DNA of 37,057 nucleotides from a virus: positions 1 through 37,057 of IMG/VR virus record IMGVR_UViG_3300028025_002021; one strand, given 5' to 3'. Below are positions 1,653-36,602 of the stretch, one piece after another; position 1 is the first letter of the stretch; every line of letters begins with the position of its first letter. The translations under genes were made by a program, and so were the position numbers. The notes beneath the pieces were generated by a model that made no database searches, had not been told where the DNA came from, and worked only from the letters and a program-made list of their open reading frames with translations.

Positions 1653-3434
1653 ATGTTAACTATCGAACAAATCACTAACAAGGTAGTGTCCTTACAGGAA
1701 CGCTACTCTTCACGTGACCAACGCATGCGCGATATCACTATGGTTCGTCGTGGCAACATGGAATCCGTGGCTCCAGACATGTTCCCTGAGGGAATCTCTA
1801 AGCCAATGATTGCCAACTTTGTTGACGTTGTTGCTCGAGACCTAGCAGAAACCCTAGCCCCACTTCCATCGTTTAACTGCTCCACAGTTAATAGCACAAG
1901 CGATTCTGCTCGCAAGGCTTCGGACAAGCGAAGCATGATTGCTAATAACTACGTTCAGAATTCTGGGTTACAAACTCAGATGTACACTGGCGCGGACTGG
2001 GCATTTACTTATGCCTACATGCCCATTGTTGTAGAGCCTGACTTTGAGGCTCGTATGCCACGTATCCGTATAGAAAACCCAATGGGTGCTTACCCGGAGT
2101 ACAACCGCTATGGAAAGTGCGTATCATACACAAAGCGTTACTTGAAGACTATTCGGGAACTTATTGTAGATTTCCCTGAATATGAATCACGTATCGTAGG
2201 CAAACTTGGTTATCAAAACCAAGACCTAAACACCGAACTAGATGTCATGCACTATCAGGATAAAGACCAAATCGTCATGTTCCTGCCACAGCGTGACTCG
2301 CTGGTGTTGCGTAAAGCAAAGAATCCTTTAGGCAAACTATCCGTTGTTGTACCTCGTAGACCAGGTATTGACGTAGATGACCCACGTGGTCAATTTGATG
2401 ACGTGCTATGGGTGCAGATTGCACGAGCACGCTTTTCCCTTCTGGCAATGGAAGCAGCAGAAAAATCTGTACAGGCTCCACTTGTCGTTCCCCAAGATTT
2501 GCAAGAATTTGCATTCGGTCCTGATGCAATCCTTCGTACTAACAACCCTGCAGGTGTACGCCGTGTAGGTCTAGAACTACCTACCGGTGCATTTACCGAA
2601 CAGCAGATTCTAGAAACAGAAATGCGCATGGGTTCTCGCTACCCAGAAGGTCGCTCAGGAAACATGGATGCCAGCGTTATTACTGGTTCTGGTGTTCAGG
2701 CACTTATGGGTGGCTTTGATTCTCAAATCAAGGCTATGCAAATGATTATCGGTGAATCACTTGAAGAAGTTATTGCTCTTTGCTTTGAGATGGATGAGAA
2801 ATTATTCCCAGGCGAGAAGAAGCAACGCGGAACTTTCAATGGTGCACCGTATGAATTTAAGTATGACTCAGCAAAAGACATTGCTGGTGACTACACGATT
2901 CAGGTTCGTTATGGCCTTATGGCTGGACTTGACCCATCACGTGCACTTATCTTCTCACTACAGGCTTTACAAGCCAATCTAGTATCCCGTGATTTTATCA
3001 TGCGAGAGTTACCATGGAGCATGAATGTTTCAGGTGAACAAGAGCGCATTGATATAGAGCGAATGCGTGATTCACTATCAGCATCGCTAGCGTCTTTAGC
3101 ACAAGCAATCCCACAGATGGCTATGCAAGGACAAGACCCTTCAGGTATTGTGGAGCAGATTGCAAAGGTTATCGACCTTCGCCGTAAAGGTAATGCAATC
3201 GAAGAAGCAGTTGTCAAGGTATTTGAAAAACCAAAACCAGAGCCAACTCCTCAAGCACCACAAGCACCTGCGCAGATGTCACCAGAAGAACTGGTTGCAC
3301 AGTCTATGGGTCAGGCTGCTGCCCCAGCAGAAGAACCAACTCCTCCGACCGAGGAACAAGTTCCGCCTGCAGGTCCTGCTGGGGGGCAACCGCCAGTTGA
3401 CTTGGCTGGAATTCTTTCTCAACTTGGCGGATAG
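1653..3434 (+). CDS. Portal protein
   Basis: Probable portal protein, the dodecameric ring at the capsid vertex through which DNA enters and leaves. The 593-residue length, the position directly after the large terminase, and the acidic/helical middle followed by a low-complexity tail all fit. Roughly the last 75 residues are rich in Pro, Gln, Ala and Glu and are probably disordered. I recognise it mainly by context and overall character, with no single diagnostic motif. It starts at ATG 7 bases after the terminase stop, with only a weak ribosome site. The next gene follows after 2 bases, suggesting one transcript. Confidence 0.82.
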   Translation: MLTIEQITNKVVSLQERYSSRDQRMRDITMVRRGNMESVAPDMFPEGISKPMIANFVDVVARDLAETLAPLPSFNCSTVNSTSDSARKASDKRSMIANNYVQNSGLQTQMYTGADWAFTYAYMPIVVEPDFEARMPRIRIENPMGAYPEYNRYGKCVSYTKRYLKTIRELIVDFPEYESRIVGKLGYQNQDLNTELDVMHYQDKDQIVMFLPQRDSLVLRKAKNPLGKLSVVVPRRPGIDVDDPRGQFDDVLWVQIARARFSLLAMEAAEKSVQAPLVVPQDLQEFAFGPDAILRTNNPAGVRRVGLELPTGAFTEQQILETEMRMGSRYPEGRSGNMDASVITGSGVQALMGGFDSQIKAMQMIIGESLEEVIALCFEMDEKLFPGEKKQRGTFNGAPYEFKYDSAKDIAGDYTIQVRYGLMAGLDPSRALIFSLQALQANLVSRDFIMRELPWSMNVSGEQERIDIERMRDSLSASLASLAQAIPQMAMQGQDPSGIVEQIAKVIDLRRKGNAIEEAVVKVFEKPKPEPTPQAPQAPAQMSPEELVAQSMGQAAAPAEEPTPPTEEQVPPAGPAGGQPPVDLAGILSQLGG

Positions 3435-3436
3435 CA

Positions 3437-3958
3437 ATGACAACAATTATTGCCGTACAATACGACAATGGTTTTGTATTTGCAGCAGACAGTCAAGTTA
3501 CTGCTAATGAAAGACCCTACATCCATGGGGATGTTAAGAAAATCACCGAAGACGGTGACTATGTAATTGCTGGTGCAGGAAATGCGAGACTTTGTGATGT
3601 TGTCCAATATGGATGGAACCTACCTTCATACGATGGAACTGACGGATACCGCTTTATGGTTAGCAAGGTTATTCCAGAAATAAAAAAAGCCCACGATACA
3701 ACTGGGACTACTTTAGAAAAAGATGATGGATTCTCATTCCTCATTGGTTTAGATAATAAGATTTACTATGTTGCTGAAGATTACTCGGTACTACGTACCG
3801 ATACAGGAATCTATGCAATGGGTACTGGTGGAGAACTTGCACTAGGTGCATACCATGCTGGTGCCACAATAAGACAGGCAATGCGTACTGCTATTAAGTT
3901 TGATGTTAATAGCGGTGGTAAAATACAGATTGTGAAACGAGGAAAGCAAAATGGCTAA
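3437..3958 (+). CDS. Proteasome beta/HslV-like N-terminal threonine peptidase
   Basis: Ntn-fold hydrolase resembling proteasome beta subunits and HslV. The protein begins M-TTIIAVQY; removing Met exposes Thr as the nucleophile. Counting that Thr as 1, Asp falls at 17 (AADS) and Lys at 33 (DVKKI), the exact T1/D17/K33 catalytic spacing of the family. MGTGGELALGAY matches the GSGG..A block of HslV, with Thr replacing Ser at mature position 129. DVNSGG matches the D166-x-x-S169-GG element. At 173 residues it is HslV-sized, with no propeptide. It sits right after the portal, where prohead maturation proteases usually lie, so capsid maturation is a reasonable inference. No partner unfoldase is visible. 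The family call is strong and the role is inferred. Confidence 0.85.
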   Translation: MTTIIAVQYDNGFVFAADSQVTANERPYIHGDVKKITEDGDYVIAGAGNARLCDVVQYGWNLPSYDGTDGYRFMVSKVIPEIKKAHDTTGTTLEKDDGFSFLIGLDNKIYYVAEDYSVLRTDTGIYAMGTGGELALGAYHAGATIRQAMRTAIKFDVNSGGKIQIVKRGKQNG

Positions 3959-4421
3959 ACAAGGTGGGTACCGTAGACCAGCCAATCCAGCACCAGTTTC
4001 AGGACCTGGTAAATTATCACGTCGTACAGATGGTGGACCATCTAGCAAGTCAGCAGTTCAGGGTGTCCGCGAGATGTCCGGTGGTGGCAAGTACGGCGAA
4101 CGTAAAGCATTAGCAGAAGCGCAGTCAGGTGCTCCTATGGCTGGTAACCCAGTTATGGGTGTAGCCCCTGCTATGGCTACGTCAGCCCCTGTCGCTGGAC
4201 CAACCACTGGTTTGTTTGACCCAAGCGAACGACCTAATGAACCAGTTACTGCTGGTTTGCCTGTAGGTCCAGGAAGAACTCCTGCACCTGCTATGACTGG
4301 CAACTATGACATGATTATGAAATACATGCCAGCACTAGAACTTATGGCATCTCAAGAAGATGCACCAGAACCATTCAGAGCATTAGTAAACTACGTAAAG
4401 GTTACGGCAGAACAAGTATGA
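3951..4421 (+). CDS. Gly/Pro/Ala-rich small virion-region protein
   Basis: A 156-residue protein of unknown function. The N-terminal two thirds is low complexity (Gly, Pro, Ala, Ser, with basic residues near the start: MAKQGGYRRPANPAP). The last 45 residues (YDMIMKYMPALELMASQ onward) look like one or two amphipathic helices. It overlaps the end of the threonine peptidase gene by 8 bases and the next small gene by 4 (ATGA), so it is translationally coupled to both. Similar Pro/Gly-rich proteins occur near the portal in other phages. It could be a substrate or cofactor of the neighbouring peptidase, a scaffold accessory or a minor virion protein; nothing in the sequence decides. Confidence 0.7.
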   Translation: MAKQGGYRRPANPAPVSGPGKLSRRTDGGPSSKSAVQGVREMSGGGKYGERKALAEAQSGAPMAGNPVMGVAPAMATSAPVAGPTTGLFDPSERPNEPVTAGLPVGPGRTPAPAMTGNYDMIMKYMPALELMASQEDAPEPFRALVNYVKVTAEQV

Positions 4422-4585
4422 ATTTACAGGAAAACGTAGCGGCATTCGTTAATGTTTTTGGTGTAGAGAATTCTGAAGTAGCATTCCCATTTGGATTAGT
4501 TGATTGGGAGTCTTCAGATGACCGCAACAAATTCATTACGCAAATATTAGAACTTAACAATGGAGAAAGAATTGGTGACCTATAA
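4418..4585 (+). CDS. 55-residue hypothetical protein
   Basis: A short acidic protein (MNLQENVAAFVNVFGVEN at the start, ending GERIGDL) joined to its neighbours by an ATGA overlap upstream and a TAATG overlap downstream. Both junctions are of the kind used throughout this genome, which is the main reason to believe the gene is real. It has one Trp, two acidic stretches and no Cys, signal or membrane segment. Function unknown. Confidence 0.65.
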   Translation: MNLQENVAAFVNVFGVENSEVAFPFGLVDWESSDDRNKFITQILELNNGERIGDL

Positions 4586-7500
4586 TGGCTACCAATAAGA
4601 ATATCCTTGATAGTATTTTACAGGCACCAGGTAGCCTAGCCAATCGAGCCCTTCAAGGCGTAGCAAATACTGCTCGTGACGAAGAAGGTAAGACTGGAGA
4701 TGTTTCTAGAAGTATTGTAAACTTTCTTTCTGATGAAGGAAATGTAAGTAACATTGAAAAACTTGATAAGCCTTACCGAGTTGGCGTTGCTCGCCCAATG
4801 TCTACCTTTTTACAGACAGTTAAAGATATTGGTCAAGATGGTCTTAATCCACGTGAGACTTGGAACCGAGCATGGGAACGCTCTAAGAACGGCGTTACAA
4901 TTGGACAGGCTTCAGTTGGTTTAGTTTCACGGTACATTCCTGGCAAGCAGGGTGCAGACAAAGTTAACTGGTCTGATAAGAAAAGTGTAACTGACTATTT
5001 CCAAAAAGACAATACTGCTGCCGAGCGTATTTCTGGTGCCGTTGATGGCACGATGAACTTTTTCTTTGACCCACTTGTGCTTGGTGGTAAGGTTGCAAAA
5101 CTTACACGTCTTGCTGCTATGGGTGTACGTGGCACTCAAATAAAAGGTCCACTAAAATTTGGTCGCGATAACCTTGCGACACTTGTTGACGAAGCAGATG
5201 CTGCAAAAGCAGGAAAAGAAAACTCTGTTTCTATTGTTGCTGATTCAATTGAGAAAAGCATTGGAAACTATCTTGCTCTAGAATCAGTTCCAATTATTGC
5301 CAACTCACAGAACCCAACTGCAGTTGCTCGTGCTATGAACGAGGCTTATGCTGTTGGCGGTAGAGATGAAATATTTGAGGTACTTAAAGCAGGACTTGGT
5401 GATGAGAAAGCAATTTCTAGAATCCAGGCTCAGGATTCAATCCTAAGTGAAACTCTTACCACAATTAAAGGTGAAATTACTGCCGTTAATAATCAGATTA
5501 AGGGCATTCCTTCAAAGAGTGCAATTGGTAACGTACCTAAACTTACTCCAAAACAATTAAAGAATCTTGAAGAAAGCAAAGCAAAGTTAATTGCTGAAAG
5601 AGAAGCAGCACAAAAACAACTTGATGCAGGTCGCACTATTGTCTCTAAAGAAGACGAAGGTGGCATTGTAGGTAAACTTGGTGGAGAACTTGCATGGAGT
5701 CGCAGTAAGTTTATTGAATACCAACGCGCTAAAGCAGTTGAAATTAATAGTCGTGGATGGTTTACTGACTACGATGCTAGCGTTGATTCACTAGGTGCTG
5801 CTGCTTTACATAAGTTTGACCCTGAGGCTATGTCCGGAACCTCCTACCGTGTACTTCGTACAGTAGGTTATTTTGGTCGCAACTACAAGGCACGTGAAAT
5901 CCCAGCAGGTTCTGTAACTATTGCTGGTGAAGTTGGTGACTTTGCTAACAAAGAGTTTCGTGCTCGTATTATTTCTGCAGCACAAGATGCAGGCTTTAGT
6001 GTAAAGCAACAACAGGATTACTACAATGCTTTTTCTGCGCTAAAAACAGATACTGCTCGCTTTCAGGAACTTGAAAAGTTTGAAGAAGAAGCGTTAACCG
6101 CTATTCTTGTTCGTGCCGTTGATACAACTGGCATGTCAAAACAACAACTTAAAGTATTAAACGAAACATTTCTTTACATTGCTAGAGATATTGGTAAAAG
6201 CAAGAAAGCAAAACTAAAAGAAATTGCTAACGACCAGAATTATGTTAATCTTGACCCACGAAGTGGAGAAGCATACATTGTAAAAGACGTTAGAGATTCG
6301 GTTAGTCGCATTGCTGAGAGAATTGCTCAGGTTGCTGGTAGACCAGTTGAACCTAAAGACATCACTGCAGCCAAAGACATTCTTTCTGGAACCCCATTAA
6401 CAAGAACTCAGGTTCCTAACGTACATTATGGTGTAGACTTCAAAAGAATAGCAGAGATACTTGGAGATGAAAAGACTTTAATCTCTACCATTGCTACGCA
6501 AATCAAGGATGACGCAACTTTAACTTCCGCTAACATAAAAGAAATTATTGAAAGGTCAAAGATTCCTGGAATTGCCGAGGACAGTGGACTAGTCAGGTCC
6601 ATCAGAGAAACCGGTGGAGAGTTCTGGCACGAAAACATTAAGAGTGGATACGAAAATCTACAAAACTATGTTTGGAAACCAGCCGTTCTACTTTCTTTAC
6701 GCTACACTTCACGTAACGTGCTTGAAGGCTGGGCACGTATGCTGGCAAGTTTTGCAGATATGGCTACCCATCAAGGTTATTCCTTGAGAACTTTGGTATC
6801 TGGATTTGATATTCCAGAAATGATTGACTCTAAACTTCAGAATGTCTACAATACCGTAGAACAACGTAGAGCATACAAAGGTTTGGCCGGAACTGGTGGT
6901 GCTAAGAAGCAATTATCTGATGCACGTGCAGAAAGACTAGAAAACGAAGTAGAGATTGGTCGAAACTTTGGCGCACTTCCAGAAGATAGCCCAAGAACTG
7001 TTGTAGAAAAGATAAACAACAGGTACAAAGAAGAGGCAGAGTACTTCTTAAACACTGCTCAGGATGTTTTGTCTTCATCTATTGAGATGTCTCGCCAACA
7101 GTTTGTTGCTATTGGAAGATACAAGGGTAATCCTGAAGCCACAGCAAACGCACGTAAGATTTCTAAACTAGGTCAAAACATTTTTAATGTTAAAGACTCA
7201 GAAGGCTTATCTGTTTCATTCCTAACCGCAATGCGTAACGGAGATTACGGTAAGGCATACGCTATTGCTATTGATAGTGACCCAGAAATAATCTTTAATA
7301 CTCTAGAGCAGATAACAAAGAGTGCAGACTCTGCAATGGTGCAAATTGAGAAACTTGCTAAAACAACTGCTTTCAATCGTAGCCCTAGACTTAAGATGCA
7401 GATAGAAGCAGTTCAGGAAACATTAGAACTTATTAAGCAGAACTCAGATGTTACTAAGATGGCATTTGATAGTGATAACAGAATACGTATCATGAAAGAC

Positions 7501-10218
7501 TACAATGATGCACTTGAAGTATCTTCTGCTAAGCCAGAAAAGGTTCGTGCTTTCTCGCAGAACCGTGTGAAGATTTCCAAGAATGCTACTATCGATGCAT
7601 CCATGGCAAAGACCATGCGATACGAAACTGTTAGTGCTGCAAACAGCACATCAAAGGCCGTTCTAAACTCACGTAGAAACGCTTTAACTAGCCTAACCTC
7701 CGTTGGAAAAAAGCAGACAACCGCACAACCAACTGATGATTTCTGGACATCTGCACATGCAGACTACATGAATAACATTATCTACGGTGATGATGCTGGT
7801 AAGTTTATCATTGATATGTCTGTTCAGACTAGAGACATAAATAATCGTCATGTAGCAGCAGAAGTTGCTAGAATGAAAAAGTCTCGCAAGTCCAAAAAAG
7901 AAATAGATGATTATTTAGCATCAACTTATTCTGATGGTGAAATCAAAGCAAGTCTTTTAGACTGGATTAAGGGTGCAGATTCAGGCACCTGGAGAAGCGA
8001 AAAGTATCTTGACTTAATAGAGTACCGTAAAAAGGGACTTGATGATGCGCAGTGGTCAGACATAACTGATGGTATCTTTGAAGAAGTCAACCGCTACCTT
8101 CCAACAAGTGGACCTTCGGGTGAGGATTTATCCTTCCTTCGTCAGGCACTTGTTGATGATAAGTTTGATGATACTTTTTCTGCACGTATTCCCATGGGAT
8201 ACAGAGACCCAGTTTATGTAAATGCAGAAATTACAAGGGATAGAAGCCTAAAGAACCTGTACAAGAATGCAGTTGGAAACTTATTCCACATGCTTGCTAC
8301 AATGCCTGAAGATTTCTTGGTCCGTCATCCCTTCTACAATGGTGTTTACAAGGCCGAGGGCGAACGCTTAGCAAAGCAATTTGCAAAGCAGGGTGTTGAT
8401 GTCAGTACACGTGCAAAAGAGATTCAGAACGCTGCTCACGCTGCTGCACTAAAGGCAGTCAATGACCGTCTATACACGGTAGAACGCTTTACTAACGTAG
8501 GTCAACTAAGCCGATTCATCGAACCATTTTACATGGCTAAGCAGAATACTACAAAGTTCTGGGTACCAACGGTTGTTCGTAACCCTGAAATTGCAGTTCG
8601 CTTTGTTCAAGCATTTACGCTTCCTTACAAACTGGGAACAGTTTATGACCGTGAAGATAACTACAAGGTAGTTAATCAGATTGGTCATCCTTGGAATGCC
8701 AAGGGTAAAGTAATGATGTTTGAGTATCCACAATGGATGCAGGATAAGTTCTTTGGTGGAGACTCTGATGCTCTTGCACAGGTTTCACTATCTGGTTTTG
8801 ACGTAGTATTCCAAGGACAACCTATTGGTGTACCGCAAATTGGTAGCCCAGTAGGTAACGCATTCCTTGGACCTATCATGCGTGGCATGGTTGGTAAGCC
8901 GTATGACCCTGCCAAGTTCCTAGAGAAGCATGGTATTGCAGACCTAGATACTGTCATAAAGTACATTCAACCTTACTACGAAGCAACAGCAGGCGAGAGT
9001 GTAGTACAGCAAACAGTCGGTGCATTTGGTTCCGGCTCTGCTGCACTAGAATCTTTGATAGTTGCAGTTGGTGGCCAGGCTGGTATGTTTGCAAACACTG
9101 CTGGTGGACAGAAGTTCCATAACAGGTTGCTGGCAATTGAAGCAGATAAACTTGCAAAACTTTCTGAACAGAATATTGGTGTAACCGGTGCGATACTTGA
9201 ACAGATTCGTGAAGAGTCACTTGCACTTACAACGAAGTCATTCTATGCTGAAGCATTTACCAATGGCTTGCCGCTTGTGTCAACCACAAGATATAAGACA
9301 TACTACGAAGTAACTGGTGAACCTAAACTACGTGCACTTCGTGCAGAGTTTGGTTATGACCTAGGTACAGCAAAGTACACAGAAGAGATTGATTCACAGC
9401 AGGCTCAGTATATAGCAAATCTAATTACTAATACTACTACTGACAACCGCTTTGGATTCAATTCATCTGAGGCTACGCTTGAAGGTATCTACGCAAACGA
9501 ACAGTTGCTAAGTCGTGCTGACTCAATAGTTGCAGATACGAGTCTTATCGGTGCCTTGTTTAACCAAGGTGACTTTGTTGAAGACCGCTCTGACATCGCT
9601 TCAGATGTATTGTTTAACATTAGAATTAATGGCGAACCTATTAAGTTTAAGTTAGATAACCCTGGCAGATATGCAGAAGATGAACAAGTACGTGCTGGCA
9701 ACAAGGACTTCTATGCTGGTATTGAAATCATTGAACAGCATGCTAAGGACAATGGATTCAAGAAGGGCACCAAGGCTTACAACGAATTCTATGGTCAGTG
9801 GAAAAAGAACTGGACTGCAACCACAGAAGAAAAGTATCCTATGTGGGCTGTTAGAGATAGAAACATTCGACAAGACCGTGTAGAAAAGAACTTGTTTGCT
9901 GCACAGTTTGTTCTATCCGACCCACAGTACATGTCCACGGTTGGCGAAAAGAACCCTATGGCTCTTGCTACCGCAGAGTACTTGCGTGGTCGTGCTAAGT
10001 TGCAAGAAGAACTTGCACGTGCAATAGCAATAAGTGGTAACACTACAATTAATGCACAAAGCAACTCTTACGTTGCAGACTTGCGTGATAACTATGTTGC
10101 TGCACTAGATAAGAAGTATCCTGGATTCCAAAGAGTTCATGAGATTTACTTTAACAACGATAAACTATTAGACATACAAAAGTATCAAACTGGTTATGGC
10201 TTTGGAGGAACTGAGTAA
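4585..10218 (+). CDS. Giant (1877-residue) virion protein, probable internal/ejection protein
   Basis: At 1877 residues this is by far the largest protein in the window and takes 15% of it. It lies between the portal and the scaffold/capsid genes. It is mostly helical in character. A Lys/Glu/Gln-rich stretch at about 290-350 is a likely coiled coil. Near residue 696 there is WKPAVLLSLRYTSRN, and near 1311 FIEPFYMAKQNTTKFW, both hydrophobic-aromatic patches in an otherwise polar chain. I see no clear transglycosylase, protease or toxin active site. By size and by the lack of any tail-tube genes I infer a protein packed inside the head and ejected with the DNA, analogous to T7 gp16 or N4 vRNAP in position and size but not shown to be homologous. 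The ATG overlaps the previous stop (TAATG). Confidence 0.6.
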   Translation: MATNKNILDSILQAPGSLANRALQGVANTARDEEGKTGDVSRSIVNFLSDEGNVSNIEKLDKPYRVGVARPMSTFLQTVKDIGQDGLNPRETWNRAWERSKNGVTIGQASVGLVSRYIPGKQGADKVNWSDKKSVTDYFQKDNTAAERISGAVDGTMNFFFDPLVLGGKVAKLTRLAAMGVRGTQIKGPLKFGRDNLATLVDEADAAKAGKENSVSIVADSIEKSIGNYLALESVPIIANSQNPTAVARAMNEAYAVGGRDEIFEVLKAGLGDEKAISRIQAQDSILSETLTTIKGEITAVNNQIKGIPSKSAIGNVPKLTPKQLKNLEESKAKLIAEREAAQKQLDAGRTIVSKEDEGGIVGKLGGELAWSRSKFIEYQRAKAVEINSRGWFTDYDASVDSLGAAALHKFDPEAMSGTSYRVLRTVGYFGRNYKAREIPAGSVTIAGEVGDFANKEFRARIISAAQDAGFSVKQQQDYYNAFSALKTDTARFQELEKFEEEALTAILVRAVDTTGMSKQQLKVLNETFLYIARDIGKSKKAKLKEIANDQNYVNLDPRSGEAYIVKDVRDSVSRIAERIAQVAGRPVEPKDITAAKDILSGTPLTRTQVPNVHYGVDFKRIAEILGDEKTLISTIATQIKDDATLTSANIKEIIERSKIPGIAEDSGLVRSIRETGGEFWHENIKSGYENLQNYVWKPAVLLSLRYTSRNVLEGWARMLASFADMATHQGYSLRTLVSGFDIPEMIDSKLQNVYNTVEQRRAYKGLAGTGGAKKQLSDARAERLENEVEIGRNFGALPEDSPRTVVEKINNRYKEEAEYFLNTAQDVLSSSIEMSRQQFVAIGRYKGNPEATANARKISKLGQNIFNVKDSEGLSVSFLTAMRNGDYGKAYAIAIDSDPEIIFNTLEQITKSADSAMVQIEKLAKTTAFNRSPRLKMQIEAVQETLELIKQNSDVTKMAFDSDNRIRIMKDYNDALEVSSAKPEKVRAFSQNRVKISKNATIDASMAKTMRYETVSAANSTSKAVLNSRRNALTSLTSVGKKQTTAQPTDDFWTSAHADYMNNIIYGDDAGKFIIDMSVQTRDINNRHVAAEVARMKKSRKSKKEIDDYLASTYSDGEIKASLLDWIKGADSGTWRSEKYLDLIEYRKKGLDDAQWSDITDGIFEEVNRYLPTSGPSGEDLSFLRQALVDDKFDDTFSARIPMGYRDPVYVNAEITRDRSLKNLYKNAVGNLFHMLATMPEDFLVRHPFYNGVYKAEGERLAKQFAKQGVDVSTRAKEIQNAAHAAALKAVNDRLYTVERFTNVGQLSRFIEPFYMAKQNTTKFWVPTVVRNPEIAVRFVQAFTLPYKLGTVYDREDNYKVVNQIGHPWNAKGKVMMFEYPQWMQDKFFGGDSDALAQVSLSGFDVVFQGQPIGVPQIGSPVGNAFLGPIMRGMVGKPYDPAKFLEKHGIADLDTVIKYIQPYYEATAGESVVQQTVGAFGSGSAALESLIVAVGGQAGMFANTAGGQKFHNRLLAIEADKLAKLSEQNIGVTGAILEQIREESLALTTKSFYAEAFTNGLPLVSTTRYKTYYEVTGEPKLRALRAEFGYDLGTAKYTEEIDSQQAQYIANLITNTTTDNRFGFNSSEATLEGIYANEQLLSRADSIVADTSLIGALFNQGDFVEDRSDIASDVLFNIRINGEPIKFKLDNPGRYAEDEQVRAGNKDFYAGIEIIEQHAKDNGFKKGTKAYNEFYGQWKKNWTATTEEKYPMWAVRDRNIRQDRVEKNLFAAQFVLSDPQYMSTVGEKNPMALATAEYLRGRAKLQEELARAIAISGNTTINAQSNSYVADLRDNYVAALDKKYPGFQRVHEIYFNNDKLLDIQKYQTGYGFGGTE

Positions 10219-12327: not shown

Positions 12328-12825
12328 ATGAGCAACAATAATCAAGACTGGTATGAAGATGATGAGTCAGACTTCGAAGACTATTCAGATGAACCACAAC
12401 GTGGTTCTGGTGATGATGTCCTGAAGAAAGTCCGAAGAGCAGAACGCTCGAAGGATAAGCAACTCAAAGAAGCACTCGCTGAGTTAGAAACTTTGCGCAA
12501 GTTCCAACGTGAGTCAACTATCAGCCAAGTCTTAAATGAGAAAGGTGTCAACCCTAAGGTTGCCAAATTCATTCCATCAGATATTGATTTATCTGCTGAT
12601 TCCATCAGTGAATGGTTAAATGACAATGGTGAACTATTCGGTTTTGCGGCACAAGCCAAAGAAAGCCCTGTGTCTTCTGAAGACCTAGGTGCTCTTCGAC
12701 AAATGGATATGGTCGCATCAGGCGCACTAACTCCAGACGATGTGAACGACGCGTTCAGCATGGTCAACAACGCACAGAGTGCAGCAGAGTTATTAGATTA
12801 TCTCTACTCACAAGGTGCGGATTAA
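12328..12825 (+). CDS. Scaffolding protein
   Basis: Probable capsid assembly scaffold: 165 residues, directly upstream of the major capsid gene. The first 28 residues are strongly acidic (WYEDDESDFEDYSDE), then a charged heptad-like stretch at about 30-65 (KKVRRAERSKDKQLKEAL) is a likely coiled coil, and a C-terminal helical part follows. This acidic-coil layout and the placement are typical of phage scaffolds. It starts at ATG after a strong Shine-Dalgarno sequence, in contrast to the tightly overlapped genes before it, which suits a product needed in large amounts. Confidence 0.8.
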   Translation: MSNNNQDWYEDDESDFEDYSDEPQRGSGDDVLKKVRRAERSKDKQLKEALAELETLRKFQRESTISQVLNEKGVNPKVAKFIPSDIDLSADSISEWLNDNGELFGFAAQAKESPVSSEDLGALRQMDMVASGALTPDDVNDAFSMVNNAQSAAELLDYLYSQGAD

Positions 12826-12857: not shown

Positions 12858-13868
12858 ATGGCTGTAACAGGCTTATCCGGTGGTAGTGCCGGTACTAACG
12901 GTGGTCTTGGTGGTGGCGCATACGCTTCCGCTAACAACGTCGGTGCTTTCACCCCATCTAACGCAGCAGGTCTAGTTCAGAAGGCATACGACCGCCTTGT
13001 TGAATTTGAACTTCGCGCAACCCCATTGCTACGTTCCGTAGCAGACAAGAAGCCTGCTCGTCAGGCAATGCCAGGTTCATCTGTAGCACTACAGATTTAC
13101 ACTGACCTAGCAAAGGCAACTACTGCTCTATCTGAAGAGGTAGACCCATCAGCAGTTGCTCTTGGAACACCATCAATCGTGAACGTCACGCTGAATGAAT
13201 ACGGTAACTCTACTCTAGTGAGCCGTAAACTACAGTTGATGTCACTTGCTGATGTTGACCCTGCTGTTGCAAATATCATTGCATTCAACATGGCTGACAG
13301 CATTGATGACTTGGCCCAGACTGCACTTCTAACTGGTACCAATGTTATCTACGCAACCGGTGGTTCAACACAGGCAACACAGGTAACTGGTATCACATCA
13401 GATGACACAATCACTGCTGCAGATATCCGTCGCGCTGTTGCTAAGTTGCGTACCAACAAGGCTAACGGTCGCAAGGGCTCAATGTACTGGTGTGGTATTC
13501 ACCCAGAAGTTTCCCTTGACCTTCGTGCTCAGAGTGGTTCAGCCAACTGGCGTCTACCGCACGAGTACTCAGCAGCAGAGAACATCTGGGCTGGCGAAAT
13601 CGGAAACTTCGAAGGTGCTTACTTCGTAGAATCCCCTCGTTTGCGCAAGACCGCAAACGGTGCTAGTTCAATCAACACATACTCAACATTCATCTGTGGA
13701 CAGCAAGCACTTGCTGAAGCAGTTGCTGAAGAGCCACATGTAGTGATTGGCCCAGTTACTGACCGTTTGATGCGTCAACGCCCAATCGGTTGGTACGGTG
13801 TTCTAGGACACGCAGTATACCGTAACGATGCGCTATTCCGCATCGAATCTGCATCAAGCATTGGCTAA
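12858..13868 (+). CDS. Major capsid protein, N4 gp56-like
   Basis: A 336-residue major head protein. After a Gly/Ser/Asn-rich N-terminal arm (about 1-35) it reads like the HK97-fold capsid proteins of the N4 gp56 family: FELRATPLLRSVADKKPARQ, then ALSEEVDPSAVALGTPSIVN and NEYGNSTLVSRKL, and a C-terminal part ending in GWYGVLGHAVYRNDALFRIE. Length fits. The start has AAGGA 7 bases upstream. Codon choice is noticeably richer in C-ending codons than in neighbouring genes, as expected for a highly expressed gene. Two hairpins follow the stop codon. The gene is confident; the N4-type assignment is moderate. Confidence 0.9.
   Translation: MAVTGLSGGSAGTNGGLGGGAYASANNVGAFTPSNAAGLVQKAYDRLVEFELRATPLLRSVADKKPARQAMPGSSVALQIYTDLAKATTALSEEVDPSAVALGTPSIVNVTLNEYGNSTLVSRKLQLMSLADVDPAVANIIAFNMADSIDDLAQTALLTGTNVIYATGGSTQATQVTGITSDDTITAADIRRAVAKLRTNKANGRKGSMYWCGIHPEVSLDLRAQSGSANWRLPHEYSAAENIWAGEIGNFEGAYFVESPRLRKTANGASSINTYSTFICGQQALAEAVAEEPHVVIGPVTDRLMRQRPIGWYGVLGHAVYRNDALFRIESASSIG

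Positions 13869-14750: not shown

Positions 14751-14751
<1 letters not shown>
14422..14751 (+). CDS. LtfC/p132/Gp6-like beta-sandwich protein
   Basis: A 109-residue all-beta protein. The pattern is [23 protein letters not shown], then [11 protein letters not shown], then [17 protein letters not shown] and a final RILEGRFIV. It matches my memory of the LtfC/p132/Gp6 beta-sandwich domain of phage tail-fibre assemblies. It lies immediately before the collagen-like fibre and overlaps it (TAATG), so a fibre-attachment or baseplate role is likely. The fold assignment is moderate; the function is inferred from context. Confidence 0.65.
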
Positions 14752-16214
<1,463 letters not shown>

Positions 16215-17709: not shown

Positions 17710-18783
17710 ATGGTTAAGATTGCAGTCTATGCTATAGCCAAGAACGAGGCTAAGCACGTTAAGAGATGGGTAGATGCTACCCAAGGGGCAGATGTCCGAA
17801 TTGTCCTAGATACTGGGTCGGAAGATAACACCTATGACCTACTCCAGAAGTACCCCGTAGAAGCCCACAGAGCCACGCTAAGCGACTTTAGGTTTGATGT
17901 GGCTAGAAACATGGCACTAGATTTAGTACCATCTGACGTGGATGTGTGTGTCTCTCTAGATATGGATGAGATACCAGACCCAGACTTCTTTGACCTACTT
18001 CGTGAGGGCTGGAAGCCAGACACAGGCAGAGCCTGGGTGATGTGGGACACAGGTAATATATGGGCTAACAATCTACGTGTCCATGCTAGACATGGATATA
18101 AATGGAAGTACCCTTGCCACGAAATTACTGAATCAACTACTGGTGTAGATAATTGCATTGTTATTGAGACCGCAGTACGGCACGTACCGGATGACAGTAA
18201 GCCACGTAGTAGTTACTTACCACTATTAGAACTGGGACATAAAGAAGACCCAGATGACCACCGCATGTTGGTCTACTTAATACGTGAGTATTACTTTAGA
18301 GGTATGTGGCAAGAAGTTATTGACCACGGTAAGAAGTTAGAACTTCAAACTGGTGGTTGGAATATAGAACTTGCTCAATCATGGCGAGCAGTAGGCGAAG
18401 CCTACATGAAACTTGGTAATGAACGTGAAGGTCTGCACTGGTATCAGTGTAATGCTGAGACAGCACCGGAAGACCTAGAGGCTTGGATGCCCCTAGCATT
18501 TCATTACTACGAGAAGAAGATGTGGCATCACTGTTATCAGGCTGCCATTAAAGTAACCGAACTTTCCCTTGAGTCCAAAAGCCATCACATGGCTGACTCT
18601 ACAATGCCATGGAGAATGTACGACTTGCTTGCTATTGCTTGCTGGAACCTAGATAAAAAGGGTTCTGCCAAAAAGTATGCACGCAAAGCAGTCGAACTAA
18701 ATCCTGACGATGAACGCTTAGTTGGAAACTATGAGTTCATTATGCATCAAACAGTTAAACAGTTCAAGGATAATAATGCATAG
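17710..18783 (+). CDS. GT2-family glycosyltransferase with TPR-like C-terminus
   Basis: A 357-residue GT-A fold glycosyltransferase. Nucleotide-sugar site features are AIAKNEAKH (about 8-16), DTGSEDNT (34-41) and a metal-binding DMD at 84-86 (SLDMDE). From about residue 200 the chain becomes helical with TPR-like repeats (AQSWRAVGEAYMKLGNEREG, then SAKKYARKAVELNPDDE near the end). It sits within the tail genes and has its own leaderless promoter. It could glycosylate a virion protein such as a fibre, or modify host surface sugars to block superinfection; the sequence does not decide. Confident on family, not on substrate. Confidence 0.85.
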   Translation: MVKIAVYAIAKNEAKHVKRWVDATQGADVRIVLDTGSEDNTYDLLQKYPVEAHRATLSDFRFDVARNMALDLVPSDVDVCVSLDMDEIPDPDFFDLLREGWKPDTGRAWVMWDTGNIWANNLRVHARHGYKWKYPCHEITESTTGVDNCIVIETAVRHVPDDSKPRSSYLPLLELGHKEDPDDHRMLVYLIREYYFRGMWQEVIDHGKKLELQTGGWNIELAQSWRAVGEAYMKLGNEREGLHWYQCNAETAPEDLEAWMPLAFHYYEKKMWHHCYQAAIKVTELSLESKSHHMADSTMPWRMYDLLAIACWNLDKKGSAKKYARKAVELNPDDERLVGNYEFIMHQTVKQFKDNNA

Positions 18784-25010: not shown

Positions 25011-25217
25011 ATGAGAAACTTTGGTATTTGGTTAGCAGATAGTCCATTCGGTGGCATGTTAAAGGCAGCACTAGGTGCTGTACTTGTATATGTTCTAGAT
25101 AATGTTTCATCTTTTGATTTAGCACCTGTAGTTATTATTGCACTTGGTGCGGCATTACCAGTAGCAATCAACTATGTTAATGGTATGGATGTACGTTACG
25201 GAAGCGTGAGCGAATAA
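25011..25217 (+). CDS. Holin (two TM segments)
   Basis: A 68-residue protein with two hydrophobic segments, about 16-33 (MLKAALGAVLVYVLDNV) and 38-57 (APVVIIALGAALPVAIN), a short turn with an Asp between them, and a polar tail. This is the class II holin layout. It starts right after the tail gene and overlaps the endopeptidase gene (TAATG), a standard holin-endolysin pair. It would permeabilise the membrane to release the enzyme at lysis. Confidence 0.8.
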   Translation: MRNFGIWLADSPFGGMLKAALGAVLVYVLDNVSSFDLAPVVIIALGAALPVAINYVNGMDVRYGSVSE

Positions 25218-25618
25218 TGTATCCAGTAAAGAAGCCTGTTATCTCCCAGAGGTACGGTGTTAAGTCCAAGCGATACAGGGTTGGATACCATGATGGTATT
25301 GACTTTGCTTGCAAGACTGGTACGCCAGTCTATGCAGCGCGCAAGGGTGTAGTAACCGCAGGTAACTGGGGTGCTGACTATGGCAAGCACATCGTGCAGC
25401 GCAGGACATTTCCTGTTGGTACCAAGAACCATCTGGTATACGCACACCTGTCTAAGGTGTTTACACAGCCTGGCGATAAAATTAAAAAGGGACAGTTGAT
25501 TGGACTCAGTGGTAACACAGGTCAAAGCACTGCTCCTCATCTTCACTTTGGTGAACGTAATGGTGCTCGCTGGAGTACGAGTCAGCCAGTTAATCCTCAG
25601 CAGACATTGGATGCATAA
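25217..25618 (+). CDS. Endolysin, M23 (LytM-type) zinc endopeptidase
   Basis: A 133-residue peptidase that should cut peptide cross-links in peptidoglycan. Zinc ligands are H25 and D29 (YHDGID) and H110 in HLHFG, with H77 (YAHLS) and H108 as catalytic histidines: the complete LytM set. The catalytic domain is the whole protein; there is no signal peptide and no cell-wall-binding domain, so export depends on the holin. It overlaps the holin by TAATG and the next gene by 1 base (TAATG). Confidence 0.88.
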   Translation: MYPVKKPVISQRYGVKSKRYRVGYHDGIDFACKTGTPVYAARKGVVTAGNWGADYGKHIVQRRTFPVGTKNHLVYAHLSKVFTQPGDKIKKGQLIGLSGNTGQSTAPHLHFGERNGARWSTSQPVNPQQTLDA

Positions 25619-29645: not shown

Positions 29646-29784
29646 GTAGTTCTCGTTCCAGTTCGGCAATGAGTTTCTTTGCGTAGTGTCTTACATTCCT
29701 ATCGCATTCAACTATGTGGATAAAGATTGTTGCTGTCTCTTGTTCCTCATGGCATTGGTTACACTTGATTCTTTTCTTTCTCAT
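29638..29784 (-). CDS. 48-residue CxxC miniprotein
   Basis: A small ORF linked by ATGA to the glycosyltransferase stop and overlapping the nuclease start. It begins MRKKRIKCNQCHEEQETATI, giving C8, C11, H12 and a later Cys (IVECD) as possible zinc ligands, then a charged helix (KKLIAELERELRE). The double overlap and composition support it being a real gene. Function unknown. Confidence 0.6.
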   Translation of the reverse strand: MRKKRIKCNQCHEEQETATIFIHIVECDRNVRHYAKKLIAELERELRE

Positions 29785-30353
29785 TGCTGCCCAGCCCTAC
29801 TCATATGAACTATCCTATCCTCACTGGCTAGTGCCAGTAGTTTAGGACTGTTACTTGTTAATTCATTACCATGTAAATGTACCACGCTTGCTGCTGCACC
29901 TATGACACCACCAAGTTTCTTGGCTTGATTCCATAGGTCATCATCACCATACCACCAGCGATAGGATTCATCTGGCATTATGCCATGCTCAAGGTTAAGC
30001 ACAAAGCAATAGCCAGATATTTTTCCACTGTGTGGTACTGGATAACCAAGTGTTGCGCCACTCTCTTCCATGAGTCTAGCAATCTTATTCAATGGGTCAT
30101 CATTAAGGATTAAGTCATCGTTAAGTACTGCTACGTAATCAGCACCAGCACTCTTAGCAAACTCAATACCTCTATTCCACCAACGATGAATGTTAATCTC
30201 ACCGTGGTCATAGATGTTATGTACATGTGGTGTAGGTGTATTGTCAAAGGTATTAACAATAACTATACGCTCTGGTGGTATGTTGCTCTCCTTGATGATG
30301 TCATCTAAGTACTGACGACGTTCACCCACAGGTATCGTCAACCACAGGTTCAT
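29781..30353 (-). CDS. Small GT2-family glycosyltransferase
   Basis: A 190-residue GT-A-type glycosyltransferase. It has IPVGERRQYLDDII near the start, a conserved-looking HRWWNRGIEFAKSAGADYVA block and the metal-binding NDD at 78-80 (VLNDDL), then a WWYGDDDLWNQAKKLGG block where GT2 enzymes place the catalytic Asp. It is encoded among replication genes, not tail genes, so its acceptor could be modified DNA bases or a host molecule. It is linked by ATGA at both ends. Confidence 0.75.
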   Translation of the reverse strand: MNLWLTIPVGERRQYLDDIIKESNIPPERIVIVNTFDNTPTPHVHNIYDHGEINIHRWWNRGIEFAKSAGADYVAVLNDDLILNDDPLNKIARLMEESGATLGYPVPHSGKISGYCFVLNLEHGIMPDESYRWWYGDDDLWNQAKKLGGVIGAAASVVHLHGNELTSNSPKLLALASEDRIVHMSRAGQQ

Positions 30354-33518: not shown

Positions 33519-33732
33519 AGTCTTGCTCACTATCATAGTCAGTTACCCACTCAAGGCGTTGCTCGTCTGTAATTATCTTCTCATAGTTACAGTCGGGACA
33601 ATAACTAACAGTAGTACCATCATCATCTGCCGGTACGTCTATGTCAATGACCTCGACACCACACTCAGGGCAATCCCAATCATCACTTCTATCACTGGTC
33701 AGCCAGCCTGACCCATGTAAACTATTGCTCAT
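33508..33732 (-). CDS. Zinc-ribbon protein (74 aa)
   Basis: A 74-residue acidic protein with a two-CxxC zinc ribbon: CPEC (21-24) and CPDC (45-48), separated by VIDIDVPADDDGTTVSY. I choose ATG 33732 because GGGAGG lies 8 bases upstream; the GTG/ATG codons at 33741 and 33738 overlap or crowd that site. The gene overlaps the WhiB stop by 11 bases. Probably a nucleic-acid- or protein-binding adaptor; the exact role is unknown. Confidence 0.7.
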   Translation of the reverse strand: MSNSLHGSGWLTSDRSDDWDCPECGVEVIDIDVPADDDGTTVSYCPDCNYEKIITDEQRLEWVTDYDSEQDYGR

Positions 33733-34222
33733 CTTCATCACCTCCCATATTAACTTCTACCTTTCCTATGTGTACTTGATAGTCTATCTCATTGACTCTG
33801 ATGCCACGCATGATGCGCTCTGACTCACGTTCAGTAGCAGTCATACCACCCCAGAACCCATACCTCTCACGTTTTATGCCCCACTCCCTGCACTCTTGTA
33901 CTACTGGACATGACAGGCACATACGCCTGAGGTATGCATGTTGTATCGGTTTGTTTGATGACCAGATTGTATCGTCTTGGTCTATCGGTGCTTCAACCTC
34001 TAGTCCATCATCATAGAAAGCCTGATGTCCAATGCCCTTGCATGATGCATTCTCAAAGTCAGGTAGTTCAAGCACCAAGTCACTCATCTTCTGGCGATTT
34101 CTGACTGGCATGGAGGCAGGGTTACCACCGTCTCGCGACCGGAACTCAAACAAATCTATCTTTGATTCGGCAGCGATTGACCTTACGTCAAGCATAACCT
34201 CATTGAAATACTCGCGAATCAT
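33722..34222 (-). CDS. whiB: WhiB-family iron-sulfur transcription factor
   Basis: A 166-residue WhiB-like protein. Cluster ligands are C61, C102, C105 and C111 (CLSCPVVQEC), followed by the family G[FVI]WGG turn as GFWGGMT at 122-128 and a charged helix (TERESERIMRGIR). The first spacing (40 residues between C61 and C102) is longer than in typical short WhiB proteins, and there are N- and C-terminal extensions, the latter acidic. WhiB proteins bind the host primary sigma factor and tune promoters. It is start-coupled with AGAGGA 5 bases upstream. It marks the host as actinobacterial. Confidence 0.88.
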   Translation of the reverse strand: MIREYFNEVMLDVRSIAAESKIDLFEFRSRDGGNPASMPVRNRQKMSDLVLELPDFENASCKGIGHQAFYDDGLEVEAPIDQDDTIWSSNKPIQHAYLRRMCLSCPVVQECREWGIKRERYGFWGGMTATERESERIMRGIRVNEIDYQVHIGKVEVNMGGDEDEQ

Positions 34223-34503: not shown

Positions 34504-35400
34504 TTACCAATCCAATTTCTCTAGTTGTTGTTGTTCTTGCTTCCACCAGTAGTCGTTACTTCTAACAGTACTGTTAGGTGTGTAGCACATGCAATGTGCC
34601 ATGTGTTCGTTGCAGTCTATACATGTATTGCATGACATGCAAGCCCCCTCATTGTAGTCGTCCTCTCGCAGTTGTGAGTAGCAATGGTAGCACACATCAT
34701 AGATAGTTCTGACAGTACCGTCAGCATCTAACAATTCATCAGATGATAGCAGTAGATGCTTGTCTCTCTCGAAGAAGTCATAATCCTCCTTAGATGCATA
34801 GCCATTGTAGTACCCACCAGTGTAACTGGTAGCCCAGTAACTGCGTGACTTGTATGAGGTGTTAGACCACCACACACCATCAGCCCAATGACCGTCCTTC
34901 TCGTTGAGAATGTACACGTCGTCCTTGAGGTCAGGTGATGTGTTGAGGATAGCAATCTTGCTACCTCTAGCCCAGTCCTCTAGTTGCTTGAAGTATGCAG
35001 GGTCGTCGAGCACACCGACACCCATGCTAGGTAGCAAATCCTCAGCAAAGATACGGGTATCTGAGCGTTTGTCACCAGGTTTGATAGTAACTGGAAGCAT
35101 ACCATTGTGACCTAACACAATGTCTTTGCGACCATCTACCCTGAATGGGTGATTGTTCTCAACGTGTGTCGTACCATGTGTGGTAAGACGGGCATGGAAC
35201 ATACCGATAGCATTAGGATTCTTATCTAACTCAGCAAAGAACCTGTCAATGGTTACGTCTACTCGCATACCACGACCTGCCACAATGTGGTCGCCGTGAT
35301 GTACTGCATAGCCGAAGCCATCGTTGTTGTTGTAGCAAGCAATCTCTAACTGCTCGCGTGTTGGTCGTGACCCTGGAAGGGATACACATAGCATACACAT
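34504..35400 (-). CDS. Class II glutamine amidotransferase with Cys-rich tail
   Basis: A 298-residue Ntn-type amidotransferase that should release ammonia from glutamine. Cys2, exposed by Met removal (M-C-M-L-C), is the nucleophile. FHARLTTHG (R71), NNHPF (82-86), GHNGM (97-101) and SDT (113-115) are the class II glutamine-site motifs in order. The C-terminal 70 residues carry a cluster of about nine Cys (CYHC, CMSCNTCIDC, HCMC) of zinc-finger type, unusual for this family. The amidoligase gene lies immediately upstream with 2 bases between, so they probably act together. Two palindromes fall within its 3' part. Confidence 0.82.
   Translation of the reverse strand: MCMLCVSLPGSRPTREQLEIACYNNNDGFGYAVHHGDHIVAGRGMRVDVTIDRFFAELDKNPNAIGMFHARLTTHGTTHVENNHPFRVDGRKDIVLGHNGMLPVTIKPGDKRSDTRIFAEDLLPSMGVGVLDDPAYFKQLEDWARGSKIAILNTSPDLKDDVYILNEKDGHWADGVWWSNTSYKSRSYWATSYTGGYYNGYASKEDYDFFERDKHLLLSSDELLDADGTVRTIYDVCYHCYSQLREDDYNEGACMSCNTCIDCNEHMAHCMCYTPNSTVRSNDYWWKQEQQQLEKLDW
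34562..34577. promoter_or_regulatory. 16-bp palindrome A (operator candidate)
   Basis: CTAACAGTACTGTTAG, a perfect palindrome with the ACAGTACTGT core shared with 36619 and, with one change, 34709. It lies inside the amidotransferase coding region. Confidence 0.5.
34709..34724. promoter_or_regulatory. 16-bp near-palindrome B (operator candidate)
   Basis: CTGACAGTACCGTCAG, 15 of 16 bases identical to the site at 36619. One mismatched pair breaks the palindrome. It is 147 bp from site A, inside the same coding region and in the same frame. Confidence 0.45.
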
Positions 35401-35402
35401 AA

Positions 35403-36602
35403 TTACTCTCCACTATTCTGAGAAGTATAAGACTTCTCGCTAAAGCCGAACTCGACTGATTGATTGATGTAACTTAATAGGTTTGGATACAAGACCTTGT
35501 TGCCTCGTAACCATTGGATAAATGCAGGTGCTGTTAAGTATTCCTCAGCACCAACACCTGACCTAGCACCGCGTGAATACTCTACGGCACTATGCACATA
35601 CTCAAGTGCAGCAAGTATGCGTTCTTTCTTTAGTGAACCCCTGAACATACGCACTTCAAGGGTAGATGTTGGTAGTACATTGACAGCAGAATACCGTTGA
35701 GCACAGTTGTCTTGACCCTTTAGATGCTTAGGTATTTCTGTGCGTACGTTCTTGTCAAAGGATGCATACGAGTTGCCTTGTCTACCTGCAATTAGGTAAG
35801 ACAAAGCCTTGTTGCGCATGAGTAACAGAGTGAATGAGTACTGATGCAACCTGCCATTGAAGCCACGTCTATCAACGTGAACATGTAAGCCACAGGTACT
35901 CCTGTCCCATGAGCGATAGCCCTTATCCAGTAACCCTTGAGTCCATTCCCAGTTCATGCTGTGTGCATAGGCAAGGGTCATTGGGTGTGTGACTATCTCG
36001 AAGCCGTCACTAAGTGAGCCGTCTTCCTTGAAGTAAGCAAGGTCGCCTAAGTATGACTCCACCAATTCCGGACCATCATAGTCATCACCATTAGACTCAA
36101 CCTCTAACTCAAACCCCATGTAAACATGGCGGTCAGCATCAGGGTCATTCTCTACCCAATGGAATTGAGGATAAGGCTTGTAACCATAGTCATGAACATC
36201 ATGAGTACCACCACAGCACCTGCCCTGTCTAGGGTCATAACTGTAATCGCAACGACTGCAATGCTCAGAGTAATCCTCGTAACAACTGTGACACCAATCA
36301 TCACTGCTAATATTGTACATGTCATTCTCGTGTTCAGTCCTACCACATCTGTCACATGTAGACATTCTGTTGCCACATGGGACACAGTAACCACCGAAGT
36401 TATCGTGCACCTCGGTGTCTGGGAATGTGCAGTCACACCAGTTACATACGAAGATGTGAGCCTCACAGTACGCATCTTCTGCACTATCAAGTGCGTATGT
36501 ATCATTGTCCATGTCTATGGTGTTAGTACATGTACCATAACAACATACTACTTGTCGTTCATCTGTCTCAATGTCTAGTGACATTGTATCTATCTCACTC
36601 AT
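35403..36602 (-). CDS. Amidoligase (COOH-NH2 ligase fold) with Cys-rich zinc-finger N-terminus
   Basis: A 399-residue protein. Residues 20-130 hold 17 Cys in CxxC-type pairs (CNWCDC, CVPC, CDRC, CHSC, CSRC), suggesting several zinc knuckles. Residues 160-340 match the amidoligase fold: GFELEVE (163-169), KEDGSL (192-197), GFEIVTHPMT (200-209), CGLHVHVDR (237-245), RYSAVN (303-308) and TLEVRMFRGSL (314-324). Members of the glutamine-synthetase-like COOH-NH2 ligase group form amide or isopeptide bonds using ATP. AGGAGG lies 7 bases before the ATG. Paired with a glutamine amidotransferase, it may amidate or crosslink a host protein, peptidoglycan peptide or virion protein. Confidence 0.82.
   Translation of the reverse strand: MSEIDTMSLDIETDERQVVCCYGTCTNTIDMDNDTYALDSAEDAYCEAHIFVCNWCDCTFPDTEVHDNFGGYCVPCGNRMSTCDRCGRTEHENDMYNISSDDWCHSCYEDYSEHCSRCDYSYDPRQGRCCGGTHDVHDYGYKPYPQFHWVENDPDADRHVYMGFELEVESNGDDYDGPELVESYLGDLAYFKEDGSLSDGFEIVTHPMTLAYAHSMNWEWTQGLLDKGYRSWDRSTCGLHVHVDRRGFNGRLHQYSFTLLLMRNKALSYLIAGRQGNSYASFDKNVRTEIPKHLKGQDNCAQRYSAVNVLPTSTLEVRMFRGSLKKERILAALEYVHSAVEYSRGARSGVGAEEYLTAPAFIQWLRGNKVLYPNLLSYINQSVEFGFSEKSYTSQNSGE

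Follow-up and report, generated by a model that had tools for sequence, protein, structure and literature searches.

The locus analyzed here raises the question of what a proteasome-like threonine peptidase does in a phage that encodes it directly behind the portal protein, and in particular whether this enzyme matures the phage head. Herein, the window refers to the whole analyzed stretch of DNA, 37,057 nucleotides of the IMG/VR virus record IMGVR_UViG_3300028025_002021. Its head genes are arranged in the order terminase, portal, peptidase, phrog_8200, giant protein, two more proteins, scaffold, and capsid. The main features are as follows:

2-1645, + strand: terminase large subunit (phrog_38), 5' end open at the window edge
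1653-3434, + strand: portal protein (phrog_104), 45-47% identical to the portals of Streptomyces Beephvirinae; marks the slot
3437-3958, + strand: HslV/proteasome-like threonine peptidase (phrog_1040), 173 aa, assigned by Pfam, PHROG, structural model, and profile alignment
3951-4421, + strand: phrog_8200 protein (PHROG match), downstream edge of the slot
4585-10218, + strand: 1877-aa protein (phrog_10618), with homologues downstream of the portal in many relatives, both peptidase-carrying and peptidase-less ones
12328-12825, + strand: probable scaffold protein, a separate gene (phrog_7813, weak match to scaffold phrog_3760)
12858-13868, + strand: major capsid protein (phrog_1357)
33722-34222, - strand: WhiB-like transcription factor (PF02467, E 1.9e-11)

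The preliminary description of this DNA had placed the peptidase gene between the portal and capsid genes. This holds, although the capsid gene follows only after 8.9 kb and five more genes. The giant 1877-aa protein has no Pfam match and is probably a virion or ejected protein. The WhiB gene indicates an actinobacterial host, and the phage, whose hosts are aquatic bacteria, thus probably infects Actinobacteria.

The peptidase open reading frame starts with ATG at 3437, ends with a stop codon at 3958 on the + strand, and encodes a protein beginning with MTTIIAV. A gap of 2 bases separates it from the portal stop codon, and it overlaps the 3951-4421 gene by 8 bases. The protein was matched by PF00227 (Proteasome) at 24.6 bits (cut-off 22.4), with the best stretch in residues 2-50, and by phrog_1040 ("peptidase HslV family") at E 2.3e-34 and 120.3 bits over residues 1-171, PHROGs giving no cut-off. 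All 35 aligned relatives matched phrog_1040 and no other PHROG at E 0.001. An AlphaFold2 model of the monomer, built from an alignment of 35 rows (the window and IMG/VR relatives), had a mean pLDDT of 92.1 and a pTM of 0.89. In the structural alignment of this model, the beta-proteobacterial proteasome homologue BPH (5ovt) was found at Z 18.8, HslV (4hnz) at Z 18.4, and Anbu (5nyg) at Z 18.0. Comparison with HslV, Anbu, and proteasome beta had been proposed as a check, and the Z scores of 17-19 against BPH and these three point to an Ntn fold. Foldseek likewise ranked BPH first, and 44 viral models in BFVD matched the model at E ≤ 0.001. The model contains both helices, at residues 50-59 and 70-88, the second being 19 residues long. 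Thus, the threonine peptidase gene first noticed in the bare sequence is real, its Pfam, PHROG, and fold matches lying far above chance, and its identity as a proteasome/HslV-like peptidase is supported by the predicted fold and active site. Values of dN/dS of 0.045-0.115 (13 of 14 comparisons computable) indicate purifying selection. Designed dTor repeat proteins, the first PDB sequence matches, were dismissed since a short repeated helix alone aligned. PADLOC gave no match, and no bacterial relatives of the peptidase were found in two genome-contig scans with narrow patterns.

The predicted active site was assigned to the following codons, each encoding a residue invariant in 35 of 35 aligned relatives:

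3440-3442, + strand: Thr2, predicted N-terminal nucleophile (mature T1) after removal of Met
3488-3490, + strand: Asp18 (mature D17), predicted catalytic residue
3539-3541, + strand: Lys35 (mature K34), predicted catalytic lysine, also from the HslV/BPH alignment
3578-3580, + strand: Gly48 (mature G47), predicted oxyanion hole

The catalytic spacing had been described as exactly that of proteasome beta subunits, with Thr1, Asp17, and Lys33. The first two positions agree. The lysine is off by one, because K35 is invariant whereas position 34 (mature 33) varies, with K in 48 of 120 relatives and R, V, T, A, or others in the rest. In the profile alignment, K35 stands opposite the lysine of the "K[VI]" motif of HslV and BPH. 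Judged from these alignments, the predicted catalytic set in mature numbering is T1, D17, K34, and G47, with an Asp-Lys spacing one residue longer than in HslV; the peptidase of phage DSL-LC01 has a still longer loop between Asp and Lys. The "DxxSGG" element of the preliminary description is also less strict than it appeared, as 32 of 120 relatives have S, T, or N in place of D156. The set of 120 relatives was trimmed at the first [MVL]TT, which makes T2 counts in it circular (at least one locus, L167, was mis-trimmed), and the invariance of T2, D18, K35, and G48 is therefore taken from the 35-row alignment.

Phage members of the proteasome family have already been described, in PHROGs and by Fuchs, Alva and Lupas (2021; PMC8665760). 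What is newly seen here is another member of this family in an unusual and informative setting. Nothing tested sets the window protein apart from phrog_1040 as a family; other phrog_1040 members with inspected neighbors mostly lie outside head modules. BPH (5ovs, 5ovt, 5ovu) gave both the best profile match (E 5.7e-11) and the best fold match (Z 18.8 over 163 residues), and its active-site residues align with those of the window peptidase. The identity is only about 23%, however, and BPH is bacterial whereas the window peptidase is phage-encoded. The loop after the second helix also appears shorter than the long acidic pore loop of BPH as described in PMC8665760. The window peptidase shares with HslV (ClpQ) the fold (Z 17-18), the N-terminal "TTI", and the order of active-site residues. 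The HslV matches are weak, at 27.6 and 29.2 bits against NCBIfam equivalog cut-offs of 157.75 and 137, one extra residue precedes the catalytic Lys, and no HslU-like gene was seen in the window. A Pfam scan of 16 proteins of the window, which may lack its ends, found no HslU, and the sole AAA protein among these 16 is AAA_25/DnaB-like.

Fuchs et al. (PMC8665760) list PPH, AAH, and CPH as group I proteasome homologues of phages, each of them radiating from the BPH cluster, and report no actinophage with AAH. In their description, PPH has ~140 residues and no helix H2. Since the window peptidase has 173 residues and a 19-residue second helix, it is not PPH. By both peptidase and portal, the nearest named phages among the matches listed are LanE43AprE7 (OX376640) and LanE43AprF5 (OX376641), herein referred to as E7 and F5. 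These cultured phages carry the terminase, portal, peptidase, and phrog_8200-like genes in the order of the window, and in E7 the giant gene follows the phrog_8200-like gene, as in the window. Their peptidases are 35-36% identical to that of the window. E7 and F5 infect "Ca. Planktophila" (PMC10202952). The authors list genes degrading host "cell wall, proteins, and DNA" without naming the peptidase gene, and HslV, protease, peptidase, and proteasome are not mentioned in the main text of that paper (PMC10202952).

The distribution of the gene was surveyed in a census of 30 distinct contigs of 33.9-63.7 kb (minimum 33.8 kb), selected by portal among the matches listed (600 stretches, best 80 loci); the portal search took in relatives regardless of the peptidase. 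The peptidase was found in 23 of these 30, at another place in 7 of them and directly after the portal in the other 16. No peptidase was found in the remaining 7, although an absence may reflect a missing end because the records are classed as linear and their completeness is not given. The usual record size in this lineage is 39-40 kb. The IMG/VR copy of isolate Manuel (L094), which has no peptidase match, lies outside the census; counting it would give 23 peptidase carriers among 31. Two larger sets, one of 125 portal loci (75 adjacent, 43 without, 7 cut) and one with counts of 149, 187, 15 cut, and 4 unknown, include peptidase-fetched loci and repeated contigs, and the census was therefore limited to the 30 portal-selected records.

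One of the census records, G008 (the record of L117, 63.7 kb), has, besides a portal belonging to this lineage, both an HslV-like gene and a serine protease of the S78 family. The HslV-like gene lies 0.9 kb from the record start and the portal near the opposite end; the record may be a chimeric assembly or another kind of phage. It was counted among the 7 records with the gene elsewhere and was excluded from the portal tree. Without it, the peptidase is present in 22 of 29 records (16 in the slot, 6 elsewhere) and not found in 7. In G003, the relocated peptidase is encoded on the minus strand, where the late and early regions meet; the gene next to it resembles, by eye, the glycosyltransferase-like gene at 29781-30353 of the window.

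Whole-record searches found no peptidase in any of six complete Streptomyces Beephvirinae genome records, which have homologous portal, scaffold, and capsid genes. Their gene order is the same up to the capsid gene, with small unrelated ORFs in the slot between the portal and phrog_8200 genes. Abafar, a member of Beephvirinae whose own record is outside the six searched, is described as a plaque-forming podovirus (PMC11536984). The slot is a small hot spot: among L088-L164, the slot of loci lacking the peptidase there is either empty or carries ~85-aa proteins of several kinds, ~70-aa proteins, or short basic proteins.

The portal tree comprised 33 rows, namely 29 of the 30 census records (all but G008), the window, E7, and two Beephvirinae. 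At least 5 changes of peptidase presence were found in it, all forced by starred branches, and 7 changes are needed for three states; a long-branch join of the L147 group with Beephvirinae was flagged. In the peptidase tree, the slot versus other locations requires 6 changes, 2 of them forced by starred branches, where "other" means that the stretch holds no portal homologue (less than 100 bases upstream in L056 and L058) and four long branches were flagged. This suggests that the portal slot has been occupied by more than one peptidase lineage; late expression with the head operon may therefore be an advantage, although it is not required. These sequence comparisons show gains, losses, and relocations of the peptidase gene against an unchanged head module.

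These data bear directly on the idea that the peptidase is a prohead protease, which in the prohead would cleave the capsid or scaffold protein before packaging. Its position right behind the portal, shared by the window and 16 of the 30 long relatives, speaks for such a role, as does the negative search of the window for S78 and ClpP-type proteases. The earlier remark that no serine prohead protease lies nearby holds for the families searched, S78 and ClpP, with S49 and S77 outside the search. None of 13 records (the window and 12 others) contained an S78 protease, 1 of 26 further records did (G008), and the ClpP family was not found in any of 31 records. Since S78 and ClpP are missing from the searched peptidase-less relatives too, heads of this type can apparently do without such a protease. 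Known prohead proteases have serine-protease folds, whereas the fold predicted here is of the Ntn type. P22 and T7 have a separate scaffold and no delta domain, and need no protease. By analogy, no protease seems necessary for a head whose scaffold is a separate protein and whose capsid protein has no delta domain.

The head proteins themselves were then compared between relatives with and without the peptidase. The capsid proteins have 13-43 residues ahead of the first conserved block, too few for a delta domain. The N-terminal tails are equally long without and with the peptidase: 38 residues in G035 against 38 in G033, 20 in G051 against 21 in G050, and 21 in G047 and G048 (without) as in G046, G030, and E7 (with). 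The remainder of the capsid protein after this tail, of about 294-309 or 367-378 residues, varies out of step with the peptidase. In both groups, the scaffold is encoded separately and measures 155-179 aa. This comparison of lengths cannot reveal small cleavages; an earlier comparison agrees with it, with some rows cut at contig ends and with "P-" standing for no peptidase in the stretch, L117 and L164 carrying a relocated copy. Maturation of the capsid or scaffold, as proposed at first, is thus at odds with the capsid N-termini and scaffold lengths, which do not follow peptidase presence, and with a gene located elsewhere or not found in 14 of 30 relatives and absent from 6 of 6 Beephvirinae with homologous head genes. 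Moreover, Salmonella phage pSal-SNUABM-04 is described as encoding serine prohead proteases separately from its two HslV genes and as carrying no HslU (PMC7823757). A prohead protease is therefore highly improbable and was rejected as the main reading on the census, whole-record searches, capsid/scaffold comparison, and portal tree.

Another virion protein could instead be processed optionally, such as the 1877-aa protein or the C-terminus of the portal. Such processing would agree with the tight linkage of the peptidase gene to the portal and to the next gene, with its 8-base overlap, and with the tree's hint that the slot was repeatedly occupied. Yet the giant gene has homologues in relatives whose slot has no peptidase, and the peptidase gene also occurs at other genome places, so this explanation is judged unlikely.

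Because the gene is optional and movable among relatives, its product is probably a helper protease and not a shell-finishing enzyme. It is reasonably likely that the peptidase is an accessory, self-compartmentalizing threonine peptidase of the HslV/BPH type that acts in the infected cell and not in capsid maturation. Removal of the initiator Met would free Thr2, and the subunits would form a closed single or double ring, like HslV and BPH, without a phage HslU. In the host cytoplasm, such a chamber could degrade proteins that are small, unfolded, or specifically delivered to it, the candidate substrates being host proteins or misfolded or surplus phage proteins during late expression. The chamber, its independence of an ATPase, and its substrates are extrapolated from BPH and HslV. 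Several points weigh against an accessory peptidase. HslV lacking HslU is weakly active; the frequent location directly behind the portal (16 of 30) and the re-occupation of the slot hint at an advantage of head-linked late expression; and some absences in the possibly incomplete census records could be missing ends.

The same family was found in diverse genomic settings in other phages. The peptidase gene of DSL-LC01 lies before a WhiB gene, ~5 kb upstream of the terminase; that of Pumpernickel follows ThyX among tRNA genes, with MazG also near; that of phAPEC8 is located two genes after PhoH; and that of VpV262 lies at the end of the early/replication region. An Hsp20-like gene was found 89-166 bases downstream of the peptidase in 14 of 51 loci whose stretch contains no portal homologue, these 51 comprising IMG/VR loci, named records, and relocated copies, some of them near copies of each other. 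The 14 loci, from aquatic phage contigs, are L041, L042, L049-L052, L061-L064, L068, L073, L078, and L082; the downstream gene of L041 belongs to phrog_432 (Hsp20). It is possible that the HslV-like and Hsp20-like genes form a chaperone-protease cassette in these other aquatic phages. By analogy, this pairing fits a role of the accessory peptidase in handling unfolded proteins, although it comes from other phages and not from the window's lineage. Among other neighbors (10 proteins from 7 loci), an endolysin, a primase, a helicase ~2 kb off, an exonuclease, and a tail protein were found, and four were unmatched.

Interference with the host proteasome or chaperone-protease system was also considered. 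The phage subunit would join host rings or serve as a decoy, so that phage proteins are spared. Actinobacteria often have a 20S proteasome, and the WhiB gene and relatives of the phage indicate actinobacterial hosts; in the model, the subunit is compact and has the pair of helices with which proteasome subunits face the opposite ring. A decoy, however, would not need the invariant active site, and peptidase homologues were also found, among the matches listed, in phages of Gammaproteobacteria, which are mostly without a proteasome. Interference of this kind is thus distinctly unlikely.

Finally, the protein may be a non-degradative Ntn enzyme, for example an amidase or a protein ligase like connectase, which is a proteasome homologue acting as a ligase according to PMC8665760. 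The closest proteins by both profile and fold are BPH and HslV, and the model is without the helical insertion among the first strands that the same paper gives for connectase, which makes a non-degradative function very unlikely.

No paper testing the function of a phage proteasome-like peptidase was found in the open-access literature, as searched through short result lists. This lineage is a good test case for such work, with cultured members (E7 and F5) and an active site kept across aligned relatives. It also offers natural relatives with the same head genes, in which the peptidase is located in the head operon, located elsewhere, or missing. The comparison speaks against a proteasome-type capsid maturation protease, the most attractive idea, and narrows the question to which proteins a proteasome-like chamber would break down for the phage inside its host.

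Two further genes of the window were found in association with the slot peptidase:

34504-35400, - strand: class-II glutamine-amidotransferase-like Ntn protein (two Pfam GATase models, below cut-offs)
35403-36602, - strand: amidoligase-like protein (PF12224, E 2.3e-4, 21.6 bits, cut-off 22)

Cys2 of the GATase-like protein is invariant in 10 aligned rows, and the amidoligase-like protein has many conserved cysteine pairs. The pair was found in 12 of 18 genomes with a slot peptidase versus 0 of 15 others (33 portal-tree rows; Fisher p 5e-5). Correction for kinship leaves 5 independent pairs, on average 3 for the association, 0 against, and 2 not differing (median p 0.25). All 15 of the 38 searched records that carry the pair have a slot peptidase. 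Among fragments without a peptidase in the record stretch, L109 and L148 carry the pair and L106 carries the GATase gene. The pair was also found in Mycobacterium phages, e.g., Marvin (19 records for each gene); Mycobacterium was missing among the peptidase matches listed (60 of 121 rows, ten organism names). E7 is without this pair, unlike the window. The association is treated as a lead only, because there are 5 independent comparisons and the fragments break the strict link. It is extremely unlikely that the peptidase is the degrading arm of a phage protein-tagging system in which the amidoligase and GATase would tag host proteins by an amide bond, like the kindred Pup ligase, and pass them on to the phage's proteasome-like chamber.

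Additional genes were noticed elsewhere in the window. A collagen-like protein with Gly-X-X repeats, seen in translation, is encoded downstream of the capsid gene (14751-16214, + strand). Weak glycosyltransferase-like proteins, below Pfam cut-offs, are encoded at 17710-18783 (+ strand) and 29781-30353 (- strand), and an M23 peptidase, a probable endolysin, at 25217-25618 (+ strand).
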